From Betaproteobacteria bacterium Ga0077527 (lineage in GTDB: Bacteria > Pseudomonadota > Gammaproteobacteria > Burkholderiales > SG8-41): a stretch of 64,000 nt of DNA. Where the stretch lies: assembly GCA_001464815.1 (NCBI GenBank), contig LNDW01000020.1, forward strand, positions 62,001 through 126,000. Direction: 5' to 3'. The notes beneath the pieces are model-generated. The model saw only the letters and a list, made by a program, of their open reading frames with translations. It had not been told where the DNA came from and ran no database searches. Shown here piece after piece: positions 15,601-38,898 of the stretch. The first letter of the stretch is position 1. Each line of letters begins with the position of its first letter. Both the position numbers and the translations under genes were made by a program.

Positions 15601-16351
15601 CCGCTCGAAACAGGCTCCCGCCACGACGCAGGCAAAGGCGCTGCCGCTGCAGCTCGACCTCGGTCTTGACCTCAACAACCGGCTGACACTGCGCGGCAAC
15701 GGGCTCGACGCGCTGCTCGGCGGCGCGATCCGCATCACCAGCGCGGCCAGCGGCCTGTCCGCCACCGGCTCGGTACGCACCGTGCGCGGCAACTACCAGG
15801 TCTTCGGCCAGCCGCTGGAAATCGAGCGAGGCACGATCAGCTTCAACGGCGCGCTGACCAACCCCGGCCTCGATCTGCGGGCCACGCGCAAATTCGCCAC
15901 CGCAGAGGTCGGCGTCGAAGTCGGCGGCTCGCTGCTCCGGCCGGCGTTGAAACTGGTGTCGAACCCGGACATGTCGGATTCCGACCGCCTTGCCTGGCTC
16001 GCGCTGGGCCGCGATCCGCAGGGCTCCGACCGCGCCCAGCTCGCGGTGCTGCAGGCCGCGGCACTGAGCCTCGCCGGCGGCGGGGGCAAACCGCTGACCG
16101 GCCGCTTCGCCGAGGGTTTGGGGCTGGACGAAATCGGTTTTGGCGGCGGCGGCACCGAAGGCGCGTTGGGAGTGGTGGCGCTGGGCAAACGCCTGACCGA
16201 CCGCCTGAGCGTGCGTCTCGAGCAGACCCTCGGCGGCACCGCCGGCAGCCTGCTGCGCATGGACTATTACCTGTCCGAGCGCTGGAGATTGCGCGGCACC
16301 GCCGGCGCCGAAAATGCCGGGGACATCCTGTTCAACTGGCGATTTGACTGA
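12632..16351 (+). CDS. tamB: Translocation and assembly module subunit TamB
   Basis: 1239 aa: one N-terminal membrane anchor (residues about 5-27), a very long repetitive beta-rich region, and a C-terminal DUF490/TamB domain (EVGVEVGGSLLRPALKLVSNPDMSD through KRLTDRLSVRLEQTLGG and a final NWRFD). TamB forms a periplasm-spanning groove that links the inner membrane to TamA. It begins within the tamA stop codon. Composition and length are normal for the family. Confidence 0.95.
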   Translation: MRGLLARLLLGTAIAAAVLIAAALLWLSSPQALQWVGEQAAQRSQQKLKLEALSGSLLGELRIARLRYDDAEFFAEVEALRLRWQPLQLLAGRLGFDEVAAAALRYSSHDSAPPALPDSLELPLTVQIRRLDIESLQFGSAPEIRKLRLRYHGNNQQHRIGLQQTLVAGCALEGDIHIGSSRPFAAGGQWQARCGEQDQSAEAHIKVDGSLERLELVLDGKGRGATASGSASLAPFAALPLLALQLQADQVNPRSWRKDLPDGALKLNARATANNDQLVGELTLVNSRPAPWNSGNLPLQRMAVQWSAHALQLTLNTISIDVPGGGQINGSALWREHRGSADLRLRAVASEGLDSRLRPLRIDGRVRIEGDAASQQFDAALTAAGAALDTRLLHDGRQLRIEQAELRLRQGLARLSGELALGGRQDFKFAGELRRFDPSLLAALPAASLNGRYSASGSLAGAWQAQVKLDLADSRLRGLPLNASADFSSSARQWFDGRAHAMIGRNRLDIQGRYGSPGDRLAATLEAADLRALDPAWNGRLNGEGALTSHQDGAAIEFRLSGAELALGALQLAELRANGTLAPGSSGALQIQADARKLQFSGRRIDSVVLHAGGNRARHVIEAQSSGADLNARIRASGGLDAGTVWRGTLDQLEAGAPWSLRLTAPAAISAGRDLISIEQFRATMLGGTLGPLKLRRSATGIESEGTFTGINPAPLLPGDGVIESAALQLGGQWSFSTGSSLNGRAGIRRESGDLRIKGGSGSTALALALRTARAELSASDGRVETTIDIDSTTMGNAALRGQVRVVQRDGRWLIPGDSAMAGNAALDLKSLAWLRALVPALDRIDGTLSAQLRAEGSAASPRFSGTINGDRLLLRAVSPGLDLRDGRLRATLEGTQLRLAEFEIRAGQGRITAGGNAELGGGLRQLELQARAERAQILNAPQWSATIDGNGRLGLRDRKLAIDGRFTLEEGRYDLGNRIRPTLGDDVVVRSKQAPATTQAKALPLQLDLGLDLNNRLTLRGNGLDALLGGAIRITSAASGLSATGSVRTVRGNYQVFGQPLEIERGTISFNGALTNPGLDLRATRKFATAEVGVEVGGSLLRPALKLVSNPDMSDSDRLAWLALGRDPQGSDRAQLAVLQAAALSLAGGGGKPLTGRFAEGLGLDEIGFGGGGTEGALGVVALGKRLTDRLSVRLEQTLGGTAGSLLRMDYYLSERWRLRGTAGAENAGDILFNWRFD

Positions 16352-25324: not shown

Positions 25325-26968
25325 TCAAGCCACCCGGGCTTTGCCGATGGCAAAAGGTGCTGCGACTGCGCCGTTTTTCCCCACCCCTGCCGGCAAGGTG
25401 TTCACGACCGCGGGTTTGACCACGTACTCCGGTCTGCCGCCATAAATTAACAACAGCAGCAATAAAGTTGCGAAGCCTGCAACCGTTGCGCAATACAGGA
25501 ACAACCAAACACGGTCTCCCTGCAGATTGTTTGCCGCGCCCAATAGCATGAGACCAATGAGCAAAGGCAGGAAAGCAGCCAGGCCCCGAATCACCATGCT
25601 CATCACGGTGGCGCCGTCCCGGTGGAGTTCGCCGACAGATGCCATCAGAAACAGCCCTCCGGCCATGGCAAGAAGCCCGAGAAACGACGCCGCAACACGG
25701 ACCCGATTGTTCCTCGCGCGCGCGGGCACCACCCCGATCGAGGGGCCGGCCTTCCGGCCATGCGGCATTTCACCACCCGGTGCATTTTTAATCCCGACAT
25801 TGCCCGAAACTGCAAGGCCGGTTTGAACGCCGGTTTGCACCGGCTTCAGAGCAAGCAAACCCTCGATTGCCTGCTTGAGCTGCTGCGCCTGAACGGACTT
25901 GTCAAAGCCGCCAGCGAGCTTTCTGCTGAAACCATCGGTCAACACCGCATGGATTTCATAGGTATGAATGGGTGGACGGCCAGGCCCGGCGCGTCGGGTC
26001 CACGCGGATTTTTTCAGCTGCAGATGGCTGAGATTCGAGACCGCGATGACCTCATTGCCCCGCCAGGGCAGCGGACCGTGCCGGATCGAGAGCCTTTCGC
26101 GACTGACCATCACAATGGTCCGGTTAAGCAAACCGGCAGCGGCGCGATAGGCCAGCACAACACCAGTTCCGAGCAGCATCGACTGAATCAGTATGGGCAG
26201 CCCTGTATGAACCGGATCAAAGGGCCAAAACGGGATCGCCCCAAAACTCGTATGCCAGGCCCACGTCATCCAGCCCGTGAAGGCCAGCCAGAGCACCGCG
26301 AACACGGCTTTGCGTATCGTGTACTGGTCAAACCAGCGTTTCACGATTTCCAGATTCGCCCCTTCCCGACGTATCGTCAGGCCCGCTTCGGCAATGACCG
26401 CGTCCTGGGGCTTGGCATCTGCGGTGCGAAAGGCCTGCTGAAGCGCACGGTTGATATACGTAGCCTGCTGCCTGCTCAGCCCCGGGCCATTCACCACGGT
26501 GACGATTTTGTCGTTGCGCAAAAGCGCCTGAACCTTGTGGTTGCTGAGCGCACCTCTTGCAAACGTCGTTTTGATGTGGAACTGCTTCAGGTTTGTGCGC
26601 TCCAGGCTCACGTTTCCCGGCCACGGCAGCGGACCATGGTGCACCGAGATACCGTCAAGGCTGAGCGTGATGCGGGTGCGGTTGACCAGGCCTGCCACAC
26701 AGAAATACATCATCCAGATCGCCGGGAGAGCAAAGATCAGCGGGAAGTAATCACCAAAAGGCTGTGTTGCAAAGTTAATGATAGCGCCATCCTGGACCAA
26801 CTGCCTGAAAGTGTTCCGTCCAAGAATTTCCCAGCCTATAAAAGCGCCGAATACACCTAGGGGAATGGCTTCAAACCTGGGCCATCTGCGCAGAATTACG
26901 ATCTGACCACCCTGCCGGATGACCTCCATCTGCGCCGGCAATTCGAGTTTGTCGGCTTTCGTTGTCAT
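25325..26968 (-). CDS. Unknown membrane protein with a duplicated membrane/PH-like module
   Basis: 547 aa from MTTKADKLELPAQ; an ATG at 27022 would add 18 residues. It has two copies of one module: two membrane helices, then GL(V/L)NRT, a short beta-like stretch and HGPLPWxGN, at residues 111-119 and 297-305 (spacing 186). Between and after these are soluble segments resembling bacterial PH-like folds (guess). Residues about 420-510 form three more membrane helices. I do not recognise the family. It is the last gene of the two-partner-secretion set, about 70 nt beyond the tpsB stop, so it may assist or sense that system. Confidence 0.7.
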   Translation of the reverse strand: MTTKADKLELPAQMEVIRQGGQIVILRRWPRFEAIPLGVFGAFIGWEILGRNTFRQLVQDGAIINFATQPFGDYFPLIFALPAIWMMYFCVAGLVNRTRITLSLDGISVHHGPLPWPGNVSLERTNLKQFHIKTTFARGALSNHKVQALLRNDKIVTVVNGPGLSRQQATYINRALQQAFRTADAKPQDAVIAEAGLTIRREGANLEIVKRWFDQYTIRKAVFAVLWLAFTGWMTWAWHTSFGAIPFWPFDPVHTGLPILIQSMLLGTGVVLAYRAAAGLLNRTIVMVSRERLSIRHGPLPWRGNEVIAVSNLSHLQLKKSAWTRRAGPGRPPIHTYEIHAVLTDGFSRKLAGGFDKSVQAQQLKQAIEGLLALKPVQTGVQTGLAVSGNVGIKNAPGGEMPHGRKAGPSIGVVPARARNNRVRVAASFLGLLAMAGGLFLMASVGELHRDGATVMSMVIRGLAAFLPLLIGLMLLGAANNLQGDRVWLFLYCATVAGFATLLLLLLIYGGRPEYVVKPAVVNTLPAGVGKNGAVAAPFAIGKARVA

Positions 26969-27041
26969 TTTCCCGTACAGCTTTGCCAGCAAGGCAACCA
27001 CAGCCTCGCATCGATGGCGCATGACTTCTTGCAGCGCTGCC

Positions 27042-28580
27042 TCAGTACCGCAAACTGAGCGCCAGATGCACGCGGTTGTCGCCCTTGTTGGTGGTGCCGG
27101 CGCCGTTGGTGACATGCGCCCAGTCGATGGTGGCGCTGAAATTGCGCCGCCACTGCCAGCGCAGGCCGGCGCCGATGCCGGAGGCGCCTTCGCGCGCCGG
27201 GGTGCCCGTTGCGGCCTGGTGGTTGCGCACGATGCCGGAGTCGGTGAACAGCACCGCACGCAGGCCCTCCGCGAGCAGCGGTGTGGTCAGCTCCAGCGTG
27301 CCGAGCAGGCCCTGGTCGCCGGTGCCTTCGCGTTCTTCCAGGCCACGTACGCCGGCCGAGCCGCCGAGGCCGAACTGCTCGCCGGGAATCAGCGCGTCGC
27401 CCGAACTCTGTCCGCGCAGCTTGGCGGTGGCGATCCAGCCGCCGAGCGCCTGCGAGCCTTCAGCACCATAACGCAAGGCCTGCCAGTCCTTGCCGGCACC
27501 GGCACGGTTGGCGGTGTAGGCGGCATCGGTGTTGCCGCTGCCGTCACCAAGGTTGTGGGCAAACTCAAGATTGCCGCGCAGGCCGTAATCGGCGCCGTCG
27601 AGGCGGCCGGTGTAGCGCAGCAGCAGCGGCTGGCTGCGCACATCAGTGCTGATGCGCGAATTGTTGAACAGCACATTGCTGCCGAAAAAACGATTCTCGA
27701 CGCCCAGCTCTGCGGCATGGCTGTAGCGGCCCAGAGGCAGCAGGCGATGCGTCCAGCGCAGACCGTAGAATTCACCGCTGCCGCTGACATTGAAAAAATT
27801 GGCGACCACGCCCGAGTTGCTGTCGGACTTGGTGTAATACGCCGACAGCGCGCCGTTCCAGGCATAAACCGGGGCGCGATAATAGATGCCGTACTGCTGC
27901 ACGTCGTCGCGGTGGCCGTCGGGCGAGGTGGTGTAGGTCGCGGTCGCCGAATGATCGCGGCCGAACAGGTTGCTGTGCGAAACGCCGACGCCGAGCCGCG
28001 TATGCCCGCTCTGCTTGTTGCCGCTATTGTCGAGGCTCGCAAAAAACTGCAGTGGCTTCGCGTCATCCACCTTCACCGCGGCATCCACGGTATCCGGCGT
28101 GCGACCCTGCTGAATGGTCACCGACAACTGTTTTGAGGGATGGTCATTGGCCAGCGCCTGCGCGCGCGCGATCTCGCGCAGATTGGGCGTGGCACCGCTG
28201 GCCAGCGCCGGCAGGCTGCGGCGGATGTTGTCGGTGCTGAACGCCTTGTTGCCGCTGACGTTGATGTTGTTCAGCTTGAAGGCCAGCACCCGCAGCGTGA
28301 TCGTACCGCGCGCATCCTGCGGCGGGATGATCACCCGCAGAAAACTGTAACCGCGATCCTTCAGCTCTGTTTCGAGCGCGCCGGCGGCGGCCTGCAGACG
28401 GTCGATGGTCATCGCATCGCCGGTGTATGGCGCGAGCAGCGCCTGGGTATCCGCGGCCGTCAGCGGGTTGTCACCTTCGACGCTGTAGGCGGTGACCGCG
28501 AAGCGGGTGTCCTGCGCCTGGGCCGGATGCACCAGCGCAGCGAGCAACACCAGCCCCGCCCCTGATAATTTACGTAACAC
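27042..28580 (-). CDS. Two-partner secretion transporter TpsB (ShlB/FhaC/HecB family)
   Basis: 512 aa from a GTG, with a signal peptide (LLAALVHPAQAQ|DTR). Residues about 27-105 form the first POTRA (FAVTAYSVEGDNPLT...LKDRGYSFLRVIIPPQD) and about 106-180 the second (INVSGNKAFSTDNIRRSLP). The rest is a 16-strand barrel with the family LGGSAGVRGLEEREGTGDQG loop and a terminal LALSLRY. It should move the tpsA product through the outer membrane. Unusually, a 1.2 kaa gene separates it from tpsA. No good ribosome site precedes the GTG; an AT-rich repeat lies there. Confidence 0.93.
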   Translation of the reverse strand: MLRKLSGAGLVLLAALVHPAQAQDTRFAVTAYSVEGDNPLTAADTQALLAPYTGDAMTIDRLQAAAGALETELKDRGYSFLRVIIPPQDARGTITLRVLAFKLNNINVSGNKAFSTDNIRRSLPALASGATPNLREIARAQALANDHPSKQLSVTIQQGRTPDTVDAAVKVDDAKPLQFFASLDNSGNKQSGHTRLGVGVSHSNLFGRDHSATATYTTSPDGHRDDVQQYGIYYRAPVYAWNGALSAYYTKSDSNSGVVANFFNVSGSGEFYGLRWTHRLLPLGRYSHAAELGVENRFFGSNVLFNNSRISTDVRSQPLLLRYTGRLDGADYGLRGNLEFAHNLGDGSGNTDAAYTANRAGAGKDWQALRYGAEGSQALGGWIATAKLRGQSSGDALIPGEQFGLGGSAGVRGLEEREGTGDQGLLGTLELTTPLLAEGLRAVLFTDSGIVRNHQAATGTPAREGASGIGAGLRWQWRRNFSATIDWAHVTNGAGTTNKGDNRVHLALSLRY

Positions 28581-28581
28581 C

Positions 28582-28605
28582 TTGTTTTTATTAACTATTT
28601 TTTAA
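28582..28605 (+). repeat. AT-rich repeat, diverged partial copy
   Basis: TTGTTTTTATTAACTATTTT and following A/T bases align with the right part of the copy at 48489-48520, with one base missing. It fills the 31-nt gap between the FecR-fold gene stop and the tpsB start. Confidence 0.55.
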
Positions 28606-28611
28606 ACTGGT

Positions 28612-31600
28612 TTATCGAATGCTGCACATATTGAGAATGGCACCATCACCGGTACGGAAGGTATCAATGACACTGCCGCCGCCACTGGGCAGCGGGCGCG
28701 GCGTGCCGTCGAAGCGCATGAAGTTGGGCACCACGTCGAGCAGGCGCACACGATCCGTCACCGCAACGGCGTTGCCAGCCGCGACATCCACCGACTCCGC
28801 GTCCTTGGTCACGCGCACTGCGCCGTCGCGCACCCAGACGTAGAGGCCTTGTTCGATGGCTTTGTCGGTGCTCTTGAACAAATCGGGATCAACCCGTGCC
28901 ACAGGCGCTGCAGCCAAGGTGGCAAGCCGTACCGGCTTTCCGGATCCGCTCAGCGTTTCACCCTTCGCAAGCCAGCCACGACCAACGACTTCGACATCGC
29001 CGTCGTAGACGGAAACGCTGCCGTCTGACTGTCCTGCCGGGGACCCAGAAGAGCCGTCACGCCGATTACTGGCCGACGGCAATTCCCGCAGCCCAACCGT
29101 ACCCCCGGCTGTGGAAGAATAACCTGCAGTTACAAGGCCAACGACGGTATTCACACTGATCCCAGAACTCCCGGCAGAAGCAACGATTTTTACATCCTCC
29201 AGAACTCTGCCGTCAGTAAAGGTCGTCTGGTTCGCAGTGGCGGACAATGATGCACTGCCCGGGCGGAACTGACCGTTCAGTACCGTGGACTGTCGGCGAT
29301 CCCCCGCAATATCAACGCTCTCTTTTTCGACAAAGCTTAACGATGCGCCACCAGCGTTGACCCGCAAATCGATATCCGGGCCGCCCTCAACTGTTCCTTC
29401 CTGATTAACCGTGCGACCACGCTGGAACAACCGGATGCCGTCAGGTCCATATTCGCGGACTCTGGTCACTGTATTCCCGCTGACGGGCCCCGATATATCC
29501 TCGCGCTCCCTGTAGCTCACAGGAATACCGGTCAGCGCATCCAGCGTCACTCGCACTGTCTGCACCCTGCTAAAGCCGCTGGCAGGCTGGTAAGTCTCGT
29601 CCACGTAATCAAATGTCAGCTCGTCACGGGTAGTCGTGGTCTGCACTTCGATCTGGCCATCCGGCCGGCGCGTCTCTGTTATGGTTTTCCTGCCATTGGG
29701 ACCGGTCGTCTGGGTGTAACGCACCACGGTGCCGTCGTCCCGGGTTTCCTCGGATACCGTGGTGGTTTCCTCTGCCGGCCAGATTGGGGGCTCCCGCACC
29801 GGCAGCACACGTCCGAGGTTCGCCTTGAGAAAATCACCGAATACCGCCGCCAACTGCGGCTGCAGCTCTGCCAGCAGTGCCGCCACCTCCTGCTCGCTAT
29901 CAACATCACCAGACCTGATCCGCGTCAATCTGTCGGCAACAGCCGTGAGACCGTCCAGGGCCGCCATGCCACCGGGAATCGGCGCAACAGTGGCGGCAAG
30001 AATCTTCGCCACTGCGGCGTCACCCTGTTTTATCAGTTCTGCGAGTTTCTCGGCCGCGGCTGCCTGCGCGGTGGTGGCCTGGGCTGCGGCCAATACTTTG
30101 AAACGCGCGAGTTTTTCCTCTGCAATTTTGCGTTCGACCGCCGCCTTCTCTTCGGCCGCCTTGCGCGCTGCGGCAAGTTTGGCATCAGCCGCGGCTTTCT
30201 CTTCTGCAAGTCGCTGAGCCGCAGCAGCTGCCGCTTGCGCTTGCGCCTCTGCCAAGGCTAGTGCAGCAGCGAGTTTCTGCGCGGTCAGCTGCTTGTCGGC
30301 AGCCGCTTTCTCCTCGGCCGCCTTGCGTACCGCGGCGAGTTTGGCTTCAGCAGCAGCTTTAGCCTCGGCAGCGGCCTTCGCGTCTTCCGCGGCCTGGCGC
30401 GCCGCCTCCTCGGCCAGGCGCGCAGCTTCCTGCTGTGCGCGCTGCTGGATTGTTGTCGCGGTCGACTGCGCCTCGTTAAAAAATGACTTGGCTGCAGCAC
30501 TGCCTTGTGCCGCAAGATGCGTGGCAATCTCCCTCTGTATGACACCAGCGCCGCCGAAAACACCTCCATTGCGGGCCTCGATCAAATCCCCGGCAGAGAG
30601 CCCCACTAATCCGATACTGCCCAGCGCATAAGGATCAGCAAGAATTCTGTTGATTTCCGAGGTGTACGCGGCCTGCTGTGCGAGATGGCTTCCGCCAACG
30701 CCTGCAGTCCCTGCCATTGAAGCCCCCAAGACCGCATTAAAAGTCAGATACTCCGCCATTGCCAGACCATAGGCGGCACGAAAAGCATCGGATTGCGCAA
30801 CAGCACCTGCGGCATTACGCGCGCCGGTGACGGCGGTGTTAAGCACCTGAGACAACTGGCTGATCCGGGTTGCCAACTGCTGCGCCGCCACTTCGGTCTG
30901 CGGCGGGTTGTTGCGCGCCTGCGTCAGCAGCGCGGTCATTTCAGCGACGATGGGTGTCGTCGCGGTATTCAGTGCATTCACCGCCTGATTCACCGCGGCG
31001 TTGGTGACCACCTGCGTGGTGTTCTGCACCTGATTCTGTACCGCGACCGCGACGTTGTTGGCCTGCTGCTGCGTGTTTTGTCCCTGGGTAGTTGCCGTAT
31101 TGACCACCTCCGCAACCACCTGATTCACACCATTGATCACCTGGTTCACGACTTGCTGCTCGCTAGGTGCGCCCGCCGTACCGCTGGTCGGCAATACCAG
31201 AGTGCCCGTGGATCCCGATGCCGTATTGCCTTCCGCGCTGGCAGTGCCTGACGCACTTGCGCCGCCAGCACCTGCCGATGCCGTACCACTGGCACTCGCA
31301 CCACCACCGCTGGCACTGCCTGAAGCGCTGGCACCGTCGGAGGTGACTGTCGCGCTGCCGCTCACGCAGAAATTGCCTACACAACCTCCACCGCTGAAGG
31401 TGGTGCCAAACGGCCGGATCACGCCGAGAGCCGTGCGAAACAGGAAAGCATCGGGGCTTATTTTTGCAAGCTGGCCGGTGCTGACCAAAGCATTGCCGTC
31501 ATACAAAGTCAGAAAAGCCGAACCTTCGCGCGGCTGCGCTTCGTTGTAGCGAAAGCGATTGATCGCGAAGCGGCTGCTCTCGACCAGCGCCACACGCGCG

Positions 31601-32289
31601 CCATCGCGGAACACCAGCAGCACGCTGCCACCGCGGCCGACGGCAACGGCATCACCCTCGTTGAGCATCGCACCCGGCACCAGCATGCGCACGGATTCGC
31701 CAGCACGGCCCGCGCCGACCACACCACTCATCTCCACCACCCTCGCCACCGGCAGCACCACCGGCCGCGGCGCGGGTTTGGCGCGTTCTTCGGTGGCGCA
31801 ATCATCGGCGCACAAACGCGCATCGAACTCGGTGCCGCGGATGCCGATGGTCGCGGTGGCAGTGTGGATGCGCACGGCATCAGGCCGGCGCTTGCCGAGC
31901 AGGCCGGTGACCACACGCATGCCACCCTTGGCCAGGCCGAGCAGCATGGATTCCGGTGCGTCATCACGATAGGCATCGAGCCGGAACACGGTGTTGGGCC
32001 GCAAGGTGATGCGCGTCTGGTCGTTGAATTCGAGTATTGCCCAGGAATCTCGCGCAACGCTGATCACATCGCGTTCGCTGAGTGTTTCGCCACGACCGAG
32101 CAAGCGTGGCGGCTGGCCGCTGCGTTCGACCAGCGCGGTGCCCTGGCTGTCGAGCACGCGGGCGACCTGGGCCTGCGCGGCGACGCTCAGCATCGATAAA
32201 AGCAGCGCCCCAAGAATCAATAAAGTATTGTTTAAAAAAAAATACTTATGTATTAACCTGCGTTGCATGGCCGCCCCGCGATGATTCAT
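28612..32289 (-). CDS. Large exported FecR-domain protein with TolA-like coiled coil
   Basis: About 1225 aa. The ATG at 32289 overlaps the tpsA stop by 4 nt; ATGs at 32295 and 32268 are alternatives. A signal peptide (LLSMLSVAAQAQ|VAR) precedes two FecR-like beta units (about 45-160, with GRGETLSERDVISV and IRGTEFDA, and about 185-310). Then come an Ala/Ser/Gly linker (306-375), a long Ala-rich stretch, an Ala/Lys/Glu coiled coil (about 600-735, TolA-like), a beta-rich part and a third FecR-like unit (GLYVWVRDGAVRVTK). Three Cys-bearing loops are present. No anti-sigma or sigma gene is near, so classical FecR signalling is unlikely. Confidence 0.8.
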   Translation of the reverse strand: MNHRGAAMQRRLIHKYFFLNNTLLILGALLLSMLSVAAQAQVARVLDSQGTALVERSGQPPRLLGRGETLSERDVISVARDSWAILEFNDQTRITLRPNTVFRLDAYRDDAPESMLLGLAKGGMRVVTGLLGKRRPDAVRIHTATATIGIRGTEFDARLCADDCATEERAKPAPRPVVLPVARVVEMSGVVGAGRAGESVRMLVPGAMLNEGDAVAVGRGGSVLLVFRDGARVALVESSRFAINRFRYNEAQPREGSAFLTLYDGNALVSTGQLAKISPDAFLFRTALGVIRPFGTTFSGGGCVGNFCVSGSATVTSDGASASGSASGGGASASGTASAGAGGASASGTASAEGNTASGSTGTLVLPTSGTAGAPSEQQVVNQVINGVNQVVAEVVNTATTQGQNTQQQANNVAVAVQNQVQNTTQVVTNAAVNQAVNALNTATTPIVAEMTALLTQARNNPPQTEVAAQQLATRISQLSQVLNTAVTGARNAAGAVAQSDAFRAAYGLAMAEYLTFNAVLGASMAGTAGVGGSHLAQQAAYTSEINRILADPYALGSIGLVGLSAGDLIEARNGGVFGGAGVIQREIATHLAAQGSAAAKSFFNEAQSTATTIQQRAQQEAARLAEEAARQAAEDAKAAAEAKAAAEAKLAAVRKAAEEKAAADKQLTAQKLAAALALAEAQAQAAAAAAQRLAEEKAAADAKLAAARKAAEEKAAVERKIAEEKLARFKVLAAAQATTAQAAAAEKLAELIKQGDAAVAKILAATVAPIPGGMAALDGLTAVADRLTRIRSGDVDSEQEVAALLAELQPQLAAVFGDFLKANLGRVLPVREPPIWPAEETTTVSEETRDDGTVVRYTQTTGPNGRKTITETRRPDGQIEVQTTTTRDELTFDYVDETYQPASGFSRVQTVRVTLDALTGIPVSYREREDISGPVSGNTVTRVREYGPDGIRLFQRGRTVNQEGTVEGGPDIDLRVNAGGASLSFVEKESVDIAGDRRQSTVLNGQFRPGSASLSATANQTTFTDGRVLEDVKIVASAGSSGISVNTVVGLVTAGYSSTAGGTVGLRELPSASNRRDGSSGSPAGQSDGSVSVYDGDVEVVGRGWLAKGETLSGSGKPVRLATLAAAPVARVDPDLFKSTDKAIEQGLYVWVRDGAVRVTKDAESVDVAAGNAVAVTDRVRLLDVVPNFMRFDGTPRPLPSGGGSVIDTFRTGDGAILNMCSIR
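32223..32250. repeat. AT-rich inverted repeat near the start of the FecR-fold gene
   Basis: AAGTATT and AATACTT flank an A/T spacer within the codons for the signal-peptide region. It resembles the AT-rich repeat family (AAGTATTGTTT) with one base missing. It could form a weak hairpin in the mRNA. Confidence 0.4.
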
Positions 32290-35200
32290 TTGCATTCGAG
32301 CACCGCGCCCTTCCGATCCTCGTCGGTCTCCTGTTTTGAAGGCTGCACATCGGCGAAAAACTTGTCTTGCAGAATGCGCAGGTCGTTCACGGCGATCTTC
32401 AGCGGCAGTTCGCTCGATGCCGAAGAACCGCCGCCACTGGATCCGGGCACCGTGCTCATCAGCAACTGGTAGAAACCGGCGTTGGGTGTGGCCGTCATCG
32501 TGTAACCGGCCGGGAAGTTCACCGTCGCGAAATTCCCGGTCCGGCTGCCGTAGGTGATCACGTCAAAGACGTTGCCTGCGGCGCCGGTGAAACCGCCGAA
32601 CAGGCTCACGTTCATCGTGCCGTTCAGATTGGCGGTGCCGGTGACCTGCAGCAGGTCGTAGTTGACGCCCTGGGTGGTGCCGCCCAGTTCAACGTTCAGC
32701 GTGCTGCCGGCACCGAGGGTCAGGTTGCCGGCGATGGTCATCGTGCCGGGCGACGAACCGACGTTGAGCGTGCCATTGTGGGTGACGTTGCCGGTAACAG
32801 TGCCGATGCCACTCAGAGTCCCCGTGTTGAGTATGAGTCCCGCGGCCGGCGCGGTGATGCCACCGCCGCCCATCACCAGCGCGCCCCCGCCGTCGGCATA
32901 ACCACCGGACAGGTTCAGAGTGCCGGCGTTGACGTTGACCGTGCCCGAGTTGGTGAAGCCGCCAGAGAAATTGCTGGTTCCCGCATTGCCCTTGATCAGC
33001 GTTCCGGCGTTGTTGAGCGCGCCGGTGCCCGACAGCGTGCCGCCGGTAACGTTGACCGTGGCCGTTGCGGCAATCTGCGTCGGGCTGTTCAGCGTCAGCC
33101 CGCCACTGGTGGTGAAACTGGCCGCTGCCGGGAAAATGACGTTGCCGCCGATGTTCAACACCAGCGCGTCATTGATGCTGGTGGTCCCGCCCAAAGTGAG
33201 GTCATTGGCGGCTGTAGTACGCAGACCGATGGTGCCCGCGCCCGCGCCAGTGGTCAGGCCCGCCAGCGAAAGCGGATTGGCGCCAGCGTCGATATAAATG
33301 TTGTTCAGCGCAGAAACCGTCAGCGTGCCGGCCGAAGGGATCAGGATGTAGTTGCCTGCGGTGCCGACCGAGCCGCCAGTGGACGTGATATTCAGGGCGC
33401 CGGTGGTCGTGATCGCATGGCCGCTCTGGCCGGAGCTGGTGTCGCGCCTGACATCGCCAGCGGCCGTAAGATCGAAACTGGCGGCAGTCGGCGTGTTGCT
33501 CCAATTGGAAAACACGAAACCGCCGGCAAGATTAATGTTGTAGACATCGTTGGCGGTGATGAAGTCGCCACCTGCAAATCCGGGCTGGCCGGCATCAAAA
33601 AGCACGTTGTCGCCGGTCATCACGATGTTCTGCGCAGATGCCACATCCGTCGCGAGCCGGGCAATATAGGCATAACCGGGGCCGCCAAATTTGACCCGGA
33701 TGTCGCCGGCCGCGCCAGCGCCGCCGCTCTGCAATGCGCCCACCCAGTCGGTCCTGCCTTCCACCGGATTGGTCAGGCCAATGCCGCCTGCAGCCTCCAG
33801 TCGCCACTGGCAGCTACCGGTCGCACAAACTTCGCGGAAACCATCCGTACCAGGTGCGAGATTGTCGATGTTGCCAGCGGAAAAGAACCGTGTCTGATTA
33901 CCGGTGATGGTGCCGCCGGCGAAACGAATATCTTTACCGGCGGTCAGCGTGCGGACTTCGAAATCTTTGTTGTTGAGGCTGGCGTTGAAACCCGCAGTGC
34001 TGTCAACAATCAGATGGCCGTCAGCCGCCTTCAGGCGTACGTAATTATCAGCGAGGCCAGCTGTAAAGTTGAGCAGGTACTTGCTGGTCAGCAAATCACC
34101 GCCGAAATGCACGAACTGGATCGAGCCGCCGCAGGAAGGATTCGAACCCGTGGAAGTTGCAGTCACGGTGCCGCTGCCGGGGGCAACACCCACGCCCCAG
34201 TTATTGCCACCGCAGCCGGTGCCGGTAAACGAGCGGGCGGTCAGTGTAATGGGGCCGTTGACGGCTGAAGTAACCAGGGTCAGAGGCGCAGTGGTATTGC
34301 CGCCCGTATTGAAGTAGCCAATATCACCGCTGAAAGTACCAGTGATGCTGTGGCCAGTCAGTGTCGCGCCATAACTCACATTTAAATTTCCACCGGTATT
34401 GATGATCCAGTGGTCATTGCTGGTGATCGCGCCGTACATCTCGATATCACCATTGGTCGGAAGGCTGGCGGCGAGCGAGACCGTTTGCGTGGTCGCGGCA
34501 TCGGTTACCACCGTGCCTGGAAACCAGCGGAAAAAGGAGGTGGATGCGCCGGTGTAATCCAGATACACATCACCCGCCGCGCCAGCGGCGGAGGTGTTGA
34601 AGATCGAATCGTGGAAGCCGAAATAGGAAGAAAAGCGAATCGGGTTGGCGGCACTGCCCAAAGCACCGGTAGTGGTGGTCAGGCGCATGATGCCTTGCGA
34701 CGTGGTACTGGAATAAAAGAGATCATTGGCTTGCGTGCCGCTGCGTTGAATGCTGTCCGCAGTCACATAAATATTGCGCGCGGTGACGGTGGCATTATTG
34801 ATGTTGAAGTTGCCGCCCGCGCTGAAAACCGCATCCGCATTGCCCAAGCCGAGGTCGATATTGGCATTGACGTTGATGTCGTTGTTGGCGATCAGGCTCA
34901 GGCCCGCCGTGTTGTTGGCGGTCTTGACGATGGCACTGCTGACGGTGATGTCACCGGCCTGGGCACCTGCGCCAGCGGTGTTCAGCGTAACGCTGGTGCC
35001 GGCATTCAACTGGCCGACAATCAGGTCGGCGCCGATCTGCGAGTTGTCACCCGTCGGGGTGAACGCCGCCACGCCCGAGTTGTTGCTGCTGCCGGCGCCG
35101 GCGACCACTTCGATGTTGTACGGATCAAGCAGCCAGGTGCCGCCGCTGCCGGCATCGATACGAATACCGCTGACATCAAGATGGCGTTTACCCGAAGTCT

Positions 35201-36368
35201 CGATAAAGCCACCGCCCTGTGCACCGGCCGCGATGATGCTGCCGTGGGCACGGGTACTGTCGTCGGCCCAGACAATGACGCGGCCGCCACTGCCAGCGGA
35301 TGCGCCAGCGTCCAGAGTCACCCCCGATGCGATATGTGTCATTTGCGCATTGCGCACCGCCGGATTCGCACCCTGGTAATCACCACCAATCAGGATTTCA
35401 CCGCCACCGCTGGCACCGCGTGCGCTGATGGTGGCGTTGTCGAACAAGCCGACACGTTCACCGGTGATTTCGGCACGCCCGCCGCGGCCTGATAAATTAT
35501 CCAATAAAATCAATGAATTACCATCAACGATGGCATCCTTCTGCGCGGCCAGCGTAACGCGGCCGCTGGCATCGACGCTGGCACTGGTGACGCGGATTTC
35601 GCCGGAATGACGCAGCGTGCCGGCGAACATCGCCGCCGCGTTCTTCGCCTCGATCGCGCCGATGTTGAGCGCGGCATCGGCCGGCGCCTGCAGCGCGAAC
35701 TGCACGCCTTGCGCATCGGGGCTGCTGATGGTCAATGAACGTCCGGCAGCCAGCACCACACTGCCGTTTTCGCTTTGGATCAGGCCGGCGTTCTCGATCT
35801 GCGGGCCGACCAGGAAGATGTCACCACTGGCGCGCAGCGTGCCTTCGTTCTTCAGTGCGCCAAGACCGCCGCCCTCGAACTTCATCCGCCCAGCAATAAA
35901 ATCGGCGTCGCGGATATTCAGCGTGGAGGCCACCAGCCCGGCGGTGTTGATCACCGCGCCCTGGCCGAAGACGATGCCATGCGGGTTGACCAGAAACACA
36001 CGACCATTCGACGACAGCGCGCCAAGTATTTGCGAAGCATCACCGCCGGTGACGCGGTTCAACACCGCGGACAGGGCAGACTGTTGCTGGAAGCGCGTGG
36101 TTTCACCCGCGCCGATTGAAAACGATTGCCAGTTGATGATCGTGCCGGGGGCGTTGGTGACGGTCAGCGTCTTGCCGGCGGTGCTGAAACTGGCGGCACC
36201 GGCCGCAACCTGCGCACCGGTCGGATTAGCCAGCGCCGGCGTGCTCCAGGCCAGCGCCACCGCCCAGGCCAACGGCGTTACCTTCAAAATCAGAGGCGAT
36301 ACCTTCGGATCCGCTGGCGCAAGATGAGGCCGTGCTTGCCGCGACACTGCAACTCCGGCTAACTTCAT
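32286..36368 (-). CDS. Filamentous haemagglutinin-type exoprotein TpsA
   Basis: 1360 aa from MKLAGVAVSRQ (ATG at 36368). A signal region (AVALAWSTPALA|NPTG) leads to the TPS domain: GKTLTVTNAPGTIINWQSF, the N-terminal-domain repeat FQQQSALSAVLNRVTGGD and SNGRVFLVNPHGIVFGQGA. The rest is a Gly/Asn/Thr-rich beta-helix, ending with autotransporter-like repeats (GNVTHNGTLNVGSSPGT). The last 40 residues are charged and hold a single Cys. It should be secreted by the TpsB in this operon as a surface adhesin or effector. No toxin domain is seen at its C-terminus, so an adhesin is more likely. Confidence 0.93.
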   Translation of the reverse strand: MKLAGVAVSRQARPHLAPADPKVSPLILKVTPLAWAVALAWSTPALANPTGAQVAAGAASFSTAGKTLTVTNAPGTIINWQSFSIGAGETTRFQQQSALSAVLNRVTGGDASQILGALSSNGRVFLVNPHGIVFGQGAVINTAGLVASTLNIRDADFIAGRMKFEGGGLGALKNEGTLRASGDIFLVGPQIENAGLIQSENGSVVLAAGRSLTISSPDAQGVQFALQAPADAALNIGAIEAKNAAAMFAGTLRHSGEIRVTSASVDASGRVTLAAQKDAIVDGNSLILLDNLSGRGGRAEITGERVGLFDNATISARGASGGGEILIGGDYQGANPAVRNAQMTHIASGVTLDAGASAGSGGRVIVWADDSTRAHGSIIAAGAQGGGFIETSGKRHLDVSGIRIDAGSGGTWLLDPYNIEVVAGAGSSNNSGVAAFTPTGDNSQIGADLIVGQLNAGTSVTLNTAGAGAQAGDITVSSAIVKTANNTAGLSLIANNDINVNANIDLGLGNADAVFSAGGNFNINNATVTARNIYVTADSIQRSGTQANDLFYSSTTSQGIMRLTTTTGALGSAANPIRFSSYFGFHDSIFNTSAAGAAGDVYLDYTGASTSFFRWFPGTVVTDAATTQTVSLAASLPTNGDIEMYGAITSNDHWIINTGGNLNVSYGATLTGHSITGTFSGDIGYFNTGGNTTAPLTLVTSAVNGPITLTARSFTGTGCGGNNWGVGVAPGSGTVTATSTGSNPSCGGSIQFVHFGGDLLTSKYLLNFTAGLADNYVRLKAADGHLIVDSTAGFNASLNNKDFEVRTLTAGKDIRFAGGTITGNQTRFFSAGNIDNLAPGTDGFREVCATGSCQWRLEAAGGIGLTNPVEGRTDWVGALQSGGAGAAGDIRVKFGGPGYAYIARLATDVASAQNIVMTGDNVLFDAGQPGFAGGDFITANDVYNINLAGGFVFSNWSNTPTAASFDLTAAGDVRRDTSSGQSGHAITTTGALNITSTGGSVGTAGNYILIPSAGTLTVSALNNIYIDAGANPLSLAGLTTGAGAGTIGLRTTAANDLTLGGTTSINDALVLNIGGNVIFPAAASFTTSGGLTLNSPTQIAATATVNVTGGTLSGTGALNNAGTLIKGNAGTSNFSGGFTNSGTVNVNAGTLNLSGGYADGGGALVMGGGGITAPAAGLILNTGTLSGIGTVTGNVTHNGTLNVGSSPGTMTIAGNLTLGAGSTLNVELGGTTQGVNYDLLQVTGTANLNGTMNVSLFGGFTGAAGNVFDVITYGSRTGNFATVNFPAGYTMTATPNAGFYQLLMSTVPGSSGGGSSASSELPLKIAVNDLRILQDKFFADVQPSKQETDEDRKGAVLECK

Positions 36369-36431
36369 GGCAACCCCCGCTCCACATGCGCTGATATTGC
36401 GCGATTCTTGTTTTTTTGACGGATCGGAGCA

Positions 36432-36449
36432 ATTGTCCTTAAGAACAAT
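36432..36449. promoter_or_regulatory. 18-bp near-palindrome between tpsA and the response-regulator gene
   Basis: ATTGTCCTTAAGAACAAT matches its own reverse complement at 16 of 18 positions. It lies 64 bp upstream of the tpsA start and 59 bp upstream of the regulator start, in the 140-bp shared promoter region. Its size and symmetry suit a dimeric LuxR/NarL-type regulator. Confidence 0.55.
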
Positions 36450-36508
36450 GCCCGCACCGGCCGATGTGCGGATAAAGTCACGAAACTTCCGCAAACCACG
36501 CCAAAACC

Positions 36509-37141
36509 ATGCCCCATGCTCTGATCGTTGATGATCACCCGTTGTACCGCGAGGGCCTGATCAGCGCCCTGCGCGTACGGCTGGACGGTGTACTGGTCAG
36601 CGGCGCCGGCACCGCTGAAGAGGGCCTCACCCTGCTCGAAACACATCCGGACATCGAACTGGTGCTGATCGACCTCAGGCTGCCGGGCATGGACGGTTTT
36701 GCCGCACTCGAACTCTACGGCGCGCGTTTCCCGGCGGTGGCGCGGGTGATCGTCTCCGGCGACGACGACCCGCTGCTGGTGCAACGCGCCTTCAATGCCG
36801 GTGCCTCGGGCTTCATCGCCAAGTCGATGGCGGTCGATGGCGTGGCCGAGGCCATCCGCAGCGTGATGGACGGCAACCTGTTCGTGCCGCCGGCCGATGG
36901 CGGTCGCAGCCACGCCGCACCTTCGGCGCGGGCGCTGACACTGCGCCAGATCGAAGTGCTGCACCTGCTCAGCGAGGGCTACACCAACAAGGAAATCGCG
37001 CGCACGCTGAACATCACCGAGCGCACCGCCAAGGCCCACCTGTCAGCGATCCTCGAAGCCCTCAACGCCGAGAACCGCACCCAGGCTGTGGTCGCCGCGC
37101 AGCGCGCCGGCCTGATCGATTCACCGCGTGCACGTCCTTGA
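36509..37141 (+). CDS. LuxR/NarL-type response regulator
   Basis: 210 aa. The receiver domain has acidic residues D8-D9, phosphoacceptor D55 (LVLIDLRLPG) and K105 (GFIAKS). The C-terminal helix-turn-helix (about 140-200; LTLRQIEVLHLLSEGYTNKEIARTLNITERTAKAHLS) is of the LuxR type. It overlaps the hybrid kinase start by 3-4 nt (TTGA), so the two make a two-component pair. Divergent from tpsA, it is the obvious candidate controller of the secretion operon. Confidence 0.93.
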   Translation: MPHALIVDDHPLYREGLISALRVRLDGVLVSGAGTAEEGLTLLETHPDIELVLIDLRLPGMDGFAALELYGARFPAVARVIVSGDDDPLLVQRAFNAGASGFIAKSMAVDGVAEAIRSVMDGNLFVPPADGGRSHAAPSARALTLRQIEVLHLLSEGYTNKEIARTLNITERTAKAHLSAILEALNAENRTQAVVAAQRAGLIDSPRARP

Positions 37142-38898
37142 GCGCCCCCGTCGCCACCAACGACCCGCGCGTGCTGCACGATCTGGTGCGCATGCTGCTG
37201 TCACGCACGCCGGCGGTGATCGCGGCCAACCTGCTGGCCGGGGTGCTGGTCACCGCCGCCCTGCACGCCACCGCCGGTCCGGGCATCCTGCTCTGGCTCT
37301 CCGTGTTCACTTTGCTGCAGGTCGGCCGCTACCAGGTCTGGCGCGGCTTCGCCGCAGATCCCGATCCCGTGGCCCGTGCCGGCAACTGGGCGCGCCGGCA
37401 CGCCGCATGGCTGTTTGTCATCGGCACCGTCTACGGGCTGCCGACCCTGCTGTTCTTTCCACCCGACGACATCGCGCGCGAGCTGTTCTGTCTCGCGGTC
37501 ATCGCGGTCACTGCCATGGGCGCGGTCGCCACCACGGTCGGCTACACGCCATCGCTGGTCTGCTTCGCGGTGCCGGCGCTGCTGCAGGCGGCGATACGCA
37601 GCTGGCTTGAAGATGGCGTGGTGTTCGACGTGCTGACAGTGGTGTTCCTCGCCCTGCCTGCGCTGCTGGTCTACTTTTCGCGCACACAAACCCGCGCCAT
37701 CCGCGAAGCGCTGCAGGTGCGTTATGAAAATGCCGCGCTGGTCACCGAACTGCGGGAGCAGAAACTGGCCGCCGAACGCGCCAACCTCGCCAAGTCGCGT
37801 TTTTTCGCCGCGGCCAGCCACGACCTGCGCCAGCCACTGCAGGCACTGGGCCTGTTCACCGCGTCGCTGCGCGATGCCGAACGCCGGCCCGAGGACAGCC
37901 GCAAGTTCGAGCAGATCCTATCAAGCGTTGACGCTCTCGAATCGCTGTTCGACGAACTGCTCGATGTGTCGCGGCTCGATGCCGGTTATGTGCAGCCGAA
38001 CATCCTGCATCTCGACACCGCGCGCCTGTTTGCGCGCCTCGAATCCGCCTACGGCCCGGTCGCCGCAAAAAACGGCCTCGAGCTGCGCTTTCGCGGCCAT
38101 CCGCCACCCATACACTCCGACCCGATCCTGCTCGAGCGTGTACTGGGCAACCTGATCTCGAATGCGCTGCGCTACACGCTGAAAGGCGGCGTGCTGGTCG
38201 GCTGGCGCCACCGGGGCAACAAGGTGCTGCTCGAAGTCTGGGACACCGGCATCGGCATTCCGCGCAGCGAGTTCCGCCAGATATTTGACGAGTTCTACCA
38301 GCTCGGCAATCCCGAACGCGACCGCCGCCATGGCCTCGGCCTCGGACTCGCCACGGTGAAACGTGTCGCCGCACTGCTGGAGTGCCCGCTGACGCTGAAC
38401 TCCGAACCCGGCCGCGGCTCGGTGTTCCGCATCGCAGTGCCGCTGGGTGACGCGGCACAGGTCAGCGCGCCGGCGCCGGTGAACTTCGGCAACATTGATG
38501 CACTTACTGGCAAGGTGATCGCGGTAATCGAGGATGACGGCGTGGTGCGCGAAGGCCTGGTCACCCTGCTCGAACAATGGCGCTGCCGGCCGGTGGCAGC
38601 CGGCTCGGCAGCGGAACTCAGCGCGCTGCTCGAAGCTGAAGCGCTGATTCCGGATGTGGTACTCGCCGACTACCGACTGCGCGACCACCAGACCGGCATC
38701 ACCGCGATCGAAGCGCTGCGCACGCGTTATGGCGAAAAATTGCCCGCACTGTTAGTCTCCGGTGACACCACGGAGGAGCTGTTCCGTGCCGCGCGGGAAC
38801 GGTCGCTGATCTTCATTGCGAAACCCGTCAGCTCGGCACGATTGCGCGCGGCGTTGCTGCATTTTCTCGCCAAACGCACACCCGCCTCCGCGGCATGA
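37138..38898 (+). CDS. Hybrid sensor histidine kinase
   Basis: 586 aa from a TTG overlapping the regulator stop. Residues 25-180 hold about six membrane helices with very short loops and no large sensor domain. A linker coiled coil follows (185-218). H228 in AASHDLRQPLQALGLF is the phosphorylation site; the ATPase domain has N342, DTGIGIP (369-375) and GLGLGLA. A C-terminal receiver (about 459-575) has D511 and K562. The short-loop membrane part suggests it senses something in or near the membrane. It may pass phosphate to the partner regulator. Confidence 0.92.
   Translation: MSAPVATNDPRVLHDLVRMLLSRTPAVIAANLLAGVLVTAALHATAGPGILLWLSVFTLLQVGRYQVWRGFAADPDPVARAGNWARRHAAWLFVIGTVYGLPTLLFFPPDDIARELFCLAVIAVTAMGAVATTVGYTPSLVCFAVPALLQAAIRSWLEDGVVFDVLTVVFLALPALLVYFSRTQTRAIREALQVRYENAALVTELREQKLAAERANLAKSRFFAAASHDLRQPLQALGLFTASLRDAERRPEDSRKFEQILSSVDALESLFDELLDVSRLDAGYVQPNILHLDTARLFARLESAYGPVAAKNGLELRFRGHPPPIHSDPILLERVLGNLISNALRYTLKGGVLVGWRHRGNKVLLEVWDTGIGIPRSEFRQIFDEFYQLGNPERDRRHGLGLGLATVKRVAALLECPLTLNSEPGRGSVFRIAVPLGDAAQVSAPAPVNFGNIDALTGKVIAVIEDDGVVREGLVTLLEQWRCRPVAAGSAAELSALLEAEALIPDVVLADYRLRDHQTGITAIEALRTRYGEKLPALLVSGDTTEELFRAARERSLIFIAKPVSSARLRAALLHFLAKRTPASAA

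Follow-up and report, generated by a model that had tools for sequence, protein, structure and literature searches.

Co-conserved, apparently unpaired terminal cysteines point to a probable FecR-fold periplasmic partner of TpsA in two-partner secretion

Two-partner secretion (TPS) is regarded as a minimal system. Where cysteines hold a TpsA protein on the cell, the available parts of three reviews describe an intramolecular loop: HMW1 is anchored by a C-terminal intramolecular disulfide, the same is expected for HxuA, and CdrA is held by a cysteine hook, with no extra protein described for any of these disulfides (PMC5422565, PMC8151025, PMC7616799). Some TPS operons do contain a third partner, such as the HMW1C glycosyltransferase, the accessory genes of contact-dependent inhibition (CDI) systems and HxuC, and in the part of the review that lists them none is described as FecR-fold (PMC5422565). 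Here we describe a TPS locus in which a gene for a FecR-fold protein, fecR, lies between tpsA and tpsB. It is found in a 64,000-nucleotide stretch of Betaproteobacteria bacterium Ga0077527 (GenBank assembly GCA_001464815.1, contig LNDW01000020.1, positions 62,001 to 126,000 of the forward strand), which is referred to as the window. The likeness to HMW1, HxuA and CdrA is that cysteine chemistry may hold the C-terminus of TpsA at the pore or in the periplasm, so that the adhesin is kept on the cell; the difference is that the second cysteine could be supplied by the FecR-fold protein. No report of a FecR-fold third partner of TPS was found, by title or start of abstract, among the papers listed in searches of the open literature, which covered few of the subscription papers.

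The original prediction, made from the window alone, had placed tpsA, fecR, tpsB and a membrane gene with a duplicated module in this order, with a regulator and a kinase divergent from tpsA, and these positions and the named domains were borne out by the open reading frames (ORFs), Pfam and NCBIfam. The tpsA gene (32286..36368, minus strand, ATG at 36368) codes for an exported adhesin-like protein of 1360 amino acids (aa), in which a signal peptide, recognized by eye, is followed by a TPS domain (PF05860, E 3.8e-30; TIGR01901, 9.6e-24), a beta-rich body and an acidic tail ending in ...GAVLECK. The fecR gene (28612..32295, minus strand) codes for 1227 aa, or for 1225 aa when read from an inner ATG at 32289, has two stretches that match PF04773 (E 4.7e-16) and overlaps tpsA by 10 or 4 nt, depending on the choice of ATG. 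After a gap of 31 nt follows tpsB (27042..28580, minus strand), the gene of the outer-membrane translocator, with matches to PF03865 (ShlB, 6.7e-25), PF08479 (POTRA, 7.6e-12) and PF07244. The N-terminal TPS domain of TpsA and the POTRA domains and ShlB barrel of TpsB, as identified by Pfam, are those of a type Vb system.

The main finding, which is new and was overlooked in the first reading, is that FecR and TpsA both end in a co-conserved cysteine that, judged by the cysteine counts, appears to be unpaired. The window TpsA has cysteines at positions 719, 746, 848, 853 and 1359 of 1360, and Cys1359 (codon 32292..32294, minus strand) stands alone in the last 40 aa. The cysteines of the FecR protein are at positions 160, 164, 303, 308 and 1222 of 1225, the last of which (codon 28624..28626, minus strand, in the numbering of the 1225-aa form) falls in an invariant column of both our alignments (A1 and A2). 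The window TpsB contains 0 cysteines. When a tail cysteine was defined as one within the last six residues, it was present in 89 of the 91 FecR proteins that have a complete end and are encoded beside TPS genes, the exceptions being a second fecR copy (locus L075) and a fragment with unknown bases (L122). It was also invariant in the alignments of 42 members of ~460 aa and of 12 single-domain members. None of the 91 proteins were pairwise identical over the last 300 aa, and five pairs were more than 90% identical over the last 150. On the other side, 61 of 65 complete TpsA proteins from FecR-linked loci carry a tail cysteine, and in 61 of 61, one of which is a dubious 232-aa ORF (L052), it is the sole cysteine of the last 40 aa; neither these proteins nor the window TpsA thus have the two cysteines near the C-terminus that would make a cysteine hook. 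The four exceptions are TpsA proteins with unknown bases before the end (L065), with an ORF that ends early near the contig end (L082), with the cysteine at position -8 (L096), and split into two ORFs, the second of which ends in ...RGRLICR (L103). Apart from the cysteine the tails are diverse, and often consist of an acidic stretch and a few basic residues before the cysteine.

Counted from the conserved domain onward, the number of cysteines was odd in 87 of 89 linked FecR proteins (1, 3, 5 or 7, the remaining two having 6) and in 46 of 50 TpsA proteins, a set that contains L065, L082 and L103. Nine TpsA proteins, including the dubious L052 ORF and with a longest member of 2466 aa, have no other cysteine in the counted region. 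In TpsB, cysteines were absent from 74 of 83 proteins, while four have one and five have two. The TpsA totals run from 1 to 15 and are mostly odd, as if cysteines outside the tail were gained or lost two at a time and the one in the tail were kept. In both proteins the others seem to come and go in pairs, a pairing that we infer from these counts, which would leave one cysteine over at each protein's end.

The FecR protein was searched for in 60 relatives and in the source genome, and the neighbourhoods of the best matches were collected (loci and genomes are numbered with L and G, respectively). Among 11 homologous loci, the order was tpsA-fecR-tpsB in L031 to L040 and tpsA-tpsB-fecR in L041, which comes from another family. 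When titled genome records were scanned with the FecR alignment, 96 loci were confirmed, of which the best 80 were taken. Among these, 63 rows of linked FecR proteins with a tail cysteine come, by record title, mostly from Beta- and Gammaproteobacteria, with two from Myxococcota and one from Planctomycetota; titles such as 'Bordetella parapertussis' or 'Klebsiella pneumoniae' on metagenome-assembled genomes look like mislabels. Isolates that carry the unit are Ramlibacter rhizophilus, Crenobacter intestini, Craterilacuibacter sp. RT1T and strain AAP99, and a plasmid search with the FecR protein gave no matches. Over all 89 rows with a tail cysteine, and with A, F and B standing for tpsA, fecR and tpsB, the gene order was A-F-B in 32, B-F-A in 30, B-A-F in 8, F-B-A in 3 and A-B-F in 2, and 14 were incomplete. 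Seen from the translocator, a fecR gene was present in 12 of 60 sampled TpsB loci (11 by an automatic rule and L185 by reading); these loci were PF03865 places from the top of the score list, where several places were skipped as second copies, as partial matches or as loci already known. The idea of an exported FecR-fold protein as conserved third partner of TpsA and TpsB, as far as gene neighbourhoods can tell, therefore holds even where the order differs. The gene order itself had been expected to be conserved outside this genome: the three-gene cluster is, in five orders, but the membrane gene does not belong to it and membership of the regulator and the kinase is unsupported, and the proposed extended machine of four families is cut down to tpsA, fecR and tpsB. 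Two further arrangements are of note. L245:1-6127 (G007:C16) shows yet another way in which FecR and TPS genes are combined in the genus: a TpsA end (..GGVCK), a regulator that by eye resembles Crp, and a single-domain FecR whose tail reads ..ECIVR stand one after the other. In L216:4246-7873, a gene for a DsbD-type thiol-disulfide exchange protein (DsbD_N, DsbD_TM, Thioredoxin_7) lies directly behind tpsA-fecR; a DsbD query found this one TPS-linked locus, and its sole other match, L224, was an unlinked FecR locus.

As a control, FecR proteins without TPS genes beside them were inspected. A tail cysteine was present in 3 of 38, each with two cysteines in the last six residues, and the cysteine count was odd in 6 of 36, the set without L043 and L044, two unlinked loci of which the former ends in two cysteines and the latter in none. 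In a FecR sample drawn blind to TPS, the tail cysteine was present in four of four TPS-linked proteins versus 1 of 53 other complete ones. This sample took roughly one in two of the PF04773 places in 60 genomes, with a few replacements and omissions (overlapping places, three genes already known to be TPS-linked, and the last part of the list), and gave 60 regions with 57 complete ORFs. Two of the four linked genes were recognized through the TpsB model, and two through an adjoining TpsA end that was seen when cysteine-bearing cases were inspected. When the 31 rows of the sample that pass the FecR model were afterwards all judged by a single neighbour rule, no TpsA was found beside a FecR without tail cysteine. 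Of 27 complete TpsA proteins with no FecR in the locus, 18 have no cysteine in the last 40 aa, 4 have two and 5 have one, and the total is odd in 8 of 27; about half of them were identified only as large neighbours of tpsB, which makes this group less secure. Same-contig repeat loci (L049, L056, L060, L107, L109, L112, L114 and L115) were left out of the counts, as was L237, where the neighbour does not read as TpsA. L094 and L123, which lie at contig edges, and L245, which is linked, were kept out of the unlinked group, and the FecR-less group excludes L185, the supposed TpsA ORF of which is a FecR with tail cysteine below the threshold for the 91.

We consider it rather probable, on the strength of these sequence comparisons, that FecR is a periplasmic retention partner that is disulfide-bonded to the TpsA tail. 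TpsA would be exported by Sec and threaded through TpsB with its N-terminal TPS domain first, while the FecR-fold protein, which has a signal peptide by eye, would be exported to the periplasm and stay there because it has no TPS domain. At the very end of TpsA, an acidic and probably disordered tail would then offer one unpaired cysteine, and the flexible C-terminal tail of FecR would offer another. Once nearly all of TpsA is past the barrel, the two tails would come together in the periplasm and be joined by an intermolecular disulfide, and as the folded FecR domains are presumably too bulky for the TpsB pore, the fibre would stay anchored to the cell. In the lineage of the window, the helical stalk of FecR may reach deeper into the periplasm. 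The linkage, the shared architecture, the terminal cysteines and the odd counts are read directly from the genes; from these we infer the export of FecR, the bond, its location and the anchoring. In the wider proposal, the single terminal cysteine of TpsA is linked by a disulfide to a periplasmic FecR-fold protein dedicated to this task, and it is this protein that determines, possibly in response to redox state, whether the fibre remains on the cell or is released; in our estimate this has an even chance of being correct. Regulated release by a LapG-like protease does not appear to be general, as PF06035 was found in G000 but not in G001, G004 and G007, all with the tpsA/fecR/tpsB unit, and 8 of 61 TpsA proteins have a loose motif of the LapG type within their last 200 aa.

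A retention module in the periplasm is known from adhesins of another secretion type, the LapA-type adhesins, as described in the available part of one paper (PMC13090378). The module of such repeats-in-toxin (RTX) adhesins, including the M. primoryensis adhesin (PDB 5ix9), is like the FecR protein in having a related small beta fold and, as we propose for FecR, in the periplasmic retention of a giant adhesin; it differs in being part of the adhesin and in using a type 1 exporter, whereas here a separate gene between tpsA and tpsB goes with type Vb secretion. When the FecR family profile was compared with the PDB, 5ix9, a domain that anchors a giant adhesin to the cell surface, was the sole sequence match up to E 1 (E 2.2e-6). 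Foldseek with the model of a FecR protein returned the anti-sigma regulators 4m0n and 4m0h first and PupR (6ovk) fourth, and 5ix9 behind the anti-sigma regulators (E 2.9e-3, TM score 0.81 by target); with the model of the window FecR, 5ix9 was the first match (E 9.4e-3). Pfam found no FecR match on the 5ix9 stretch. The 5ix9 fold match is common to FecR proteins in general, and we take it as a hint of kinship in fold, based in part on models, and not in function.

Several observations weigh against a retention role. Unlinked FecR proteins match 5ix9 too (E 7e-5), so the similarity is not specific; linked single-domain FecR proteins match it weakly (E 0.012), and the window FecR sequence alone has no 5ix9 match. 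Nine of 83 TpsB proteins have one or two cysteines, and two FecR and four TpsA proteins break the odd rule. In a tree of 125 FecR domains, the linked genes fall almost in one clade (2 changes), which allows the link between tail cysteine and TPS no more than one or two independent origins; it appears from this tree to be deep conservation in one lineage and not many independent gains, and a test of independent origins of cysteine and linkage was uninformative for the same reason. The odd-number pattern is therefore a stronger argument than the correlation between tail cysteine and TPS. Finally, in five loci that lack a FecR (L145, L146, L147, L159 and L169), TpsA has a single cysteine among its last 40 aa. 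The genomes of L145, L146, L147 and L169 (G000, G007, G001 and G028, as listed) each hold a tail-cysteine FecR elsewhere, the genome of L159 being outside this check, so retention by FecR would here need pairing in trans. L145 (G000:C7), L146 and L147 represent a second TPS pair in the same genus, with TpsA ends such as ..APACR and ..APVCR and no fecR gene beside it, and these TpsA proteins may share a FecR protein in trans.

The same TpsA proteins could be read differently, since the terminal cysteines might make homodimers, with TpsA ends paired to each other and FecR to FecR, in which case FecR would help TpsA in some other way than through a bond. Pairing of each protein with itself would account for the odd counts just as well, and the TpsA proteins of L145 to L147 and L169 have the tail cysteine with no fecR gene beside them. 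That both cysteines are co-conserved through five gene orders speaks for a bond between the two proteins, as does the presence of a tail-cysteine FecR elsewhere in the genomes of four of the five TpsA proteins with a single tail cysteine and no adjacent FecR, and we regard homodimers as unlikely. The cysteine bond might also be transient, with FecR assisting TpsA in the periplasm as a chaperone or an aid to secretion, much like a thiol-dependent holdase that lets go before export or in its course. The tight coupling of tpsA and fecR in many loci, with a 10-nt overlap in 20 of 28 close pairs, and the DsbD gene directly after tpsA-fecR in L216 would suit such a role; yet neither Pfam nor Foldseek found a chaperone fold, and among the Dsb families DsbD was the one searched for, with a DsbD-like gene in that TPS-linked locus alone. 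A chaperone role thus seems improbable to us.

In a third explanation, FecR would be a cell-surface-signalling regulator of the anti-sigma type that reports TpsA secretion. This is suggested by the FecR name and fold and by the anti-sigma regulators that lead the Foldseek matches, and a FecR-like protein, VreR, adjoins the TPS pair PdtA/PdtB in Pseudomonas aeruginosa. In the accessible part of the work on PUMA3 of this organism, a sigma-factor signalling system is joined with TPS and FecR terms (PMC2729926). FecR and PupR anti-sigma regulators share the PF04773 domain and, through 4m0n and 6ovk, the fold with our protein, but PF04773 is the only Pfam domain found in the latter at E up to 0.1, with neither an N-terminal anti-sigma domain nor a C-terminal STN-like domain, and by eye it is an exported soluble protein. 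No sigma factor, of the extracytoplasmic function (ECF) type or any other, was found among the six locus genes and the annotated flanking genes on either side in the window, systematic annotation of neighbours being confined to this locus. The lack of a sigma-regulator architecture agrees with the first reading, and a signalling role is very doubtful. The notion that the TpsA tail cysteine is a mere by-product of the overlap between its TGC codon and the start of fecR (ATGCAAATGA), an overlap that is exact in the window and fits the 20 of 28 close pairs with a 10-nt overlap, can hardly be right, as the notion is contradicted by B-F-A and B-A-F loci that have the cysteine and no fecR start there (such as L062, L066, L067, L151 and L181) and does not explain the tail cysteine of FecR.

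The putative retention partner encoded in the window is unusually large. Alignment shows that the 1225-aa protein, like the ~460-aa members, consists of tandem FecR domains and a third FecR-like strand unit. FecR domain 1 (31813..32070, minus strand; residues 76-161 of the 1227-aa form), delimited by Pfam, alignment and model, ends at a cysteine pair, CADDC. The N-terminal part of FecR domain 2 (31363..31746, minus strand; approximately residues 184-311) carries the pair CVGNFC just before an insertion of ~770 aa (29047..31362, minus strand; boundaries approximate), which lies in a loop of this domain, is absent from the ~460-aa members, and comprises Gly/Ser-rich, helical, beta-rich and disordered parts. 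The C-terminal module (28615..29046, minus strand) completes FecR domain 2 and adds the third strand unit and the tail ...LNMCSIR. Within the insertion, AlphaFold2 modelled a long Ala/Glu/Lys/Arg-rich helix of ~185 residues (29992..30546, minus strand; residues 555-739 of a 1198-aa model), which would measure ~28 nm if straight. For a short member, modelled with 42 sequences, the mean confidence was 88.1, and the last 12 residues with the invariant cysteine (448-459) fell below 50. The window FecR, modelled from residue 28 with 16 sequences, reached 60.8 overall, mostly 80-92 in the two FecR domains, ~44-81 in the 185-residue helix (at least 70 over its middle) and below 50 in the C-terminal tail. 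A TolA-like coiled coil had been expected here: the long helix is seen in the model, but the TolA family match was confined to the helical region and stayed at 31.1 bits, under the NCBIfam cut-off of 59.45, and the ~460-aa members are without a coil. Giant size and helical stalk thus appear, by comparison with these members, to be a lineage-specific insertion in a ~460-aa tandem-FecR core; such a coil cannot be the general mechanism, and a giant FecR as a general periplasm-spanning machine was ruled out.

The remaining genes of the locus appear to lie outside the conserved unit. The membrane gene (25325..26968, minus strand), 73 nt beyond tpsB, codes for a protein that has no Pfam or NCBIfam match and the halves of which align at 26% identity (E 5e-16), so that the internal duplication is real; a PH-like (pleckstrin homology) fold is a guess by eye. 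The LuxR-type response regulator (36509..37141, plus strand; Response_reg and GerE in Pfam) is divergent from tpsA and followed by the hybrid histidine kinase (37138..38898, plus strand; HisKA, HATPase_c and a receiver), which resembles the NahK/ErcS family with 354 bits, under the cut-off of 400. Neither the membrane gene nor the two-component pair had a tblastn match in L031 to L041, where at least 1 kb was visible on the downstream side in 11 of 11 and more than 1 kb upstream of tpsA in four (L032, L033, L035 and L037); for L036, with TpsA unassigned, the upstream figure was measured from fecR. Wider searches with the membrane protein gave weak and partial relatives in 2 of 60 other genomes and in 3 of 273 others of a class sample, so that it is nearly private to the source genome; the kinase had no match at E 1e-100 in 20 relatives. 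From these searches we conclude that the conserved unit is of three genes. The suggestion that the membrane protein is an accessory or sensor of the unit was given up, and the two-component pair as part of it finds no support. Dedicated two-component control is likewise unsupported as a conserved feature in L031 to L041 and the 20 relatives, with the upstream side visible in few loci. The response regulator is possibly a local regulator of the locus. At the site divergent from tpsA, where regulator and kinase show no sign of conservation among the few loci with a visible upstream side, two relatives have a different LuxR-type gene (L033:15215-16288 by Pfam and L035:2488-3498 by similar sequence), and this site may repeatedly recruit LuxR-type regulators. 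Elsewhere in the window there is a TamB gene (12446-16351; PF04357, E 7.2e-47), with the membrane gene and tpsB ~9 to 11 kb away from it.

If FecR indeed retains TpsA through a disulfide between the two tails, type Vb secretion would have a mode of surface anchoring that is new, with a third partner in a system known for two. The FecR domain of the linked clade would be an anchoring domain and not a signalling domain, which would give it a role outside sigma signalling, and it would explain the retention of TpsA in many systems where the name of the fecR gene says little.

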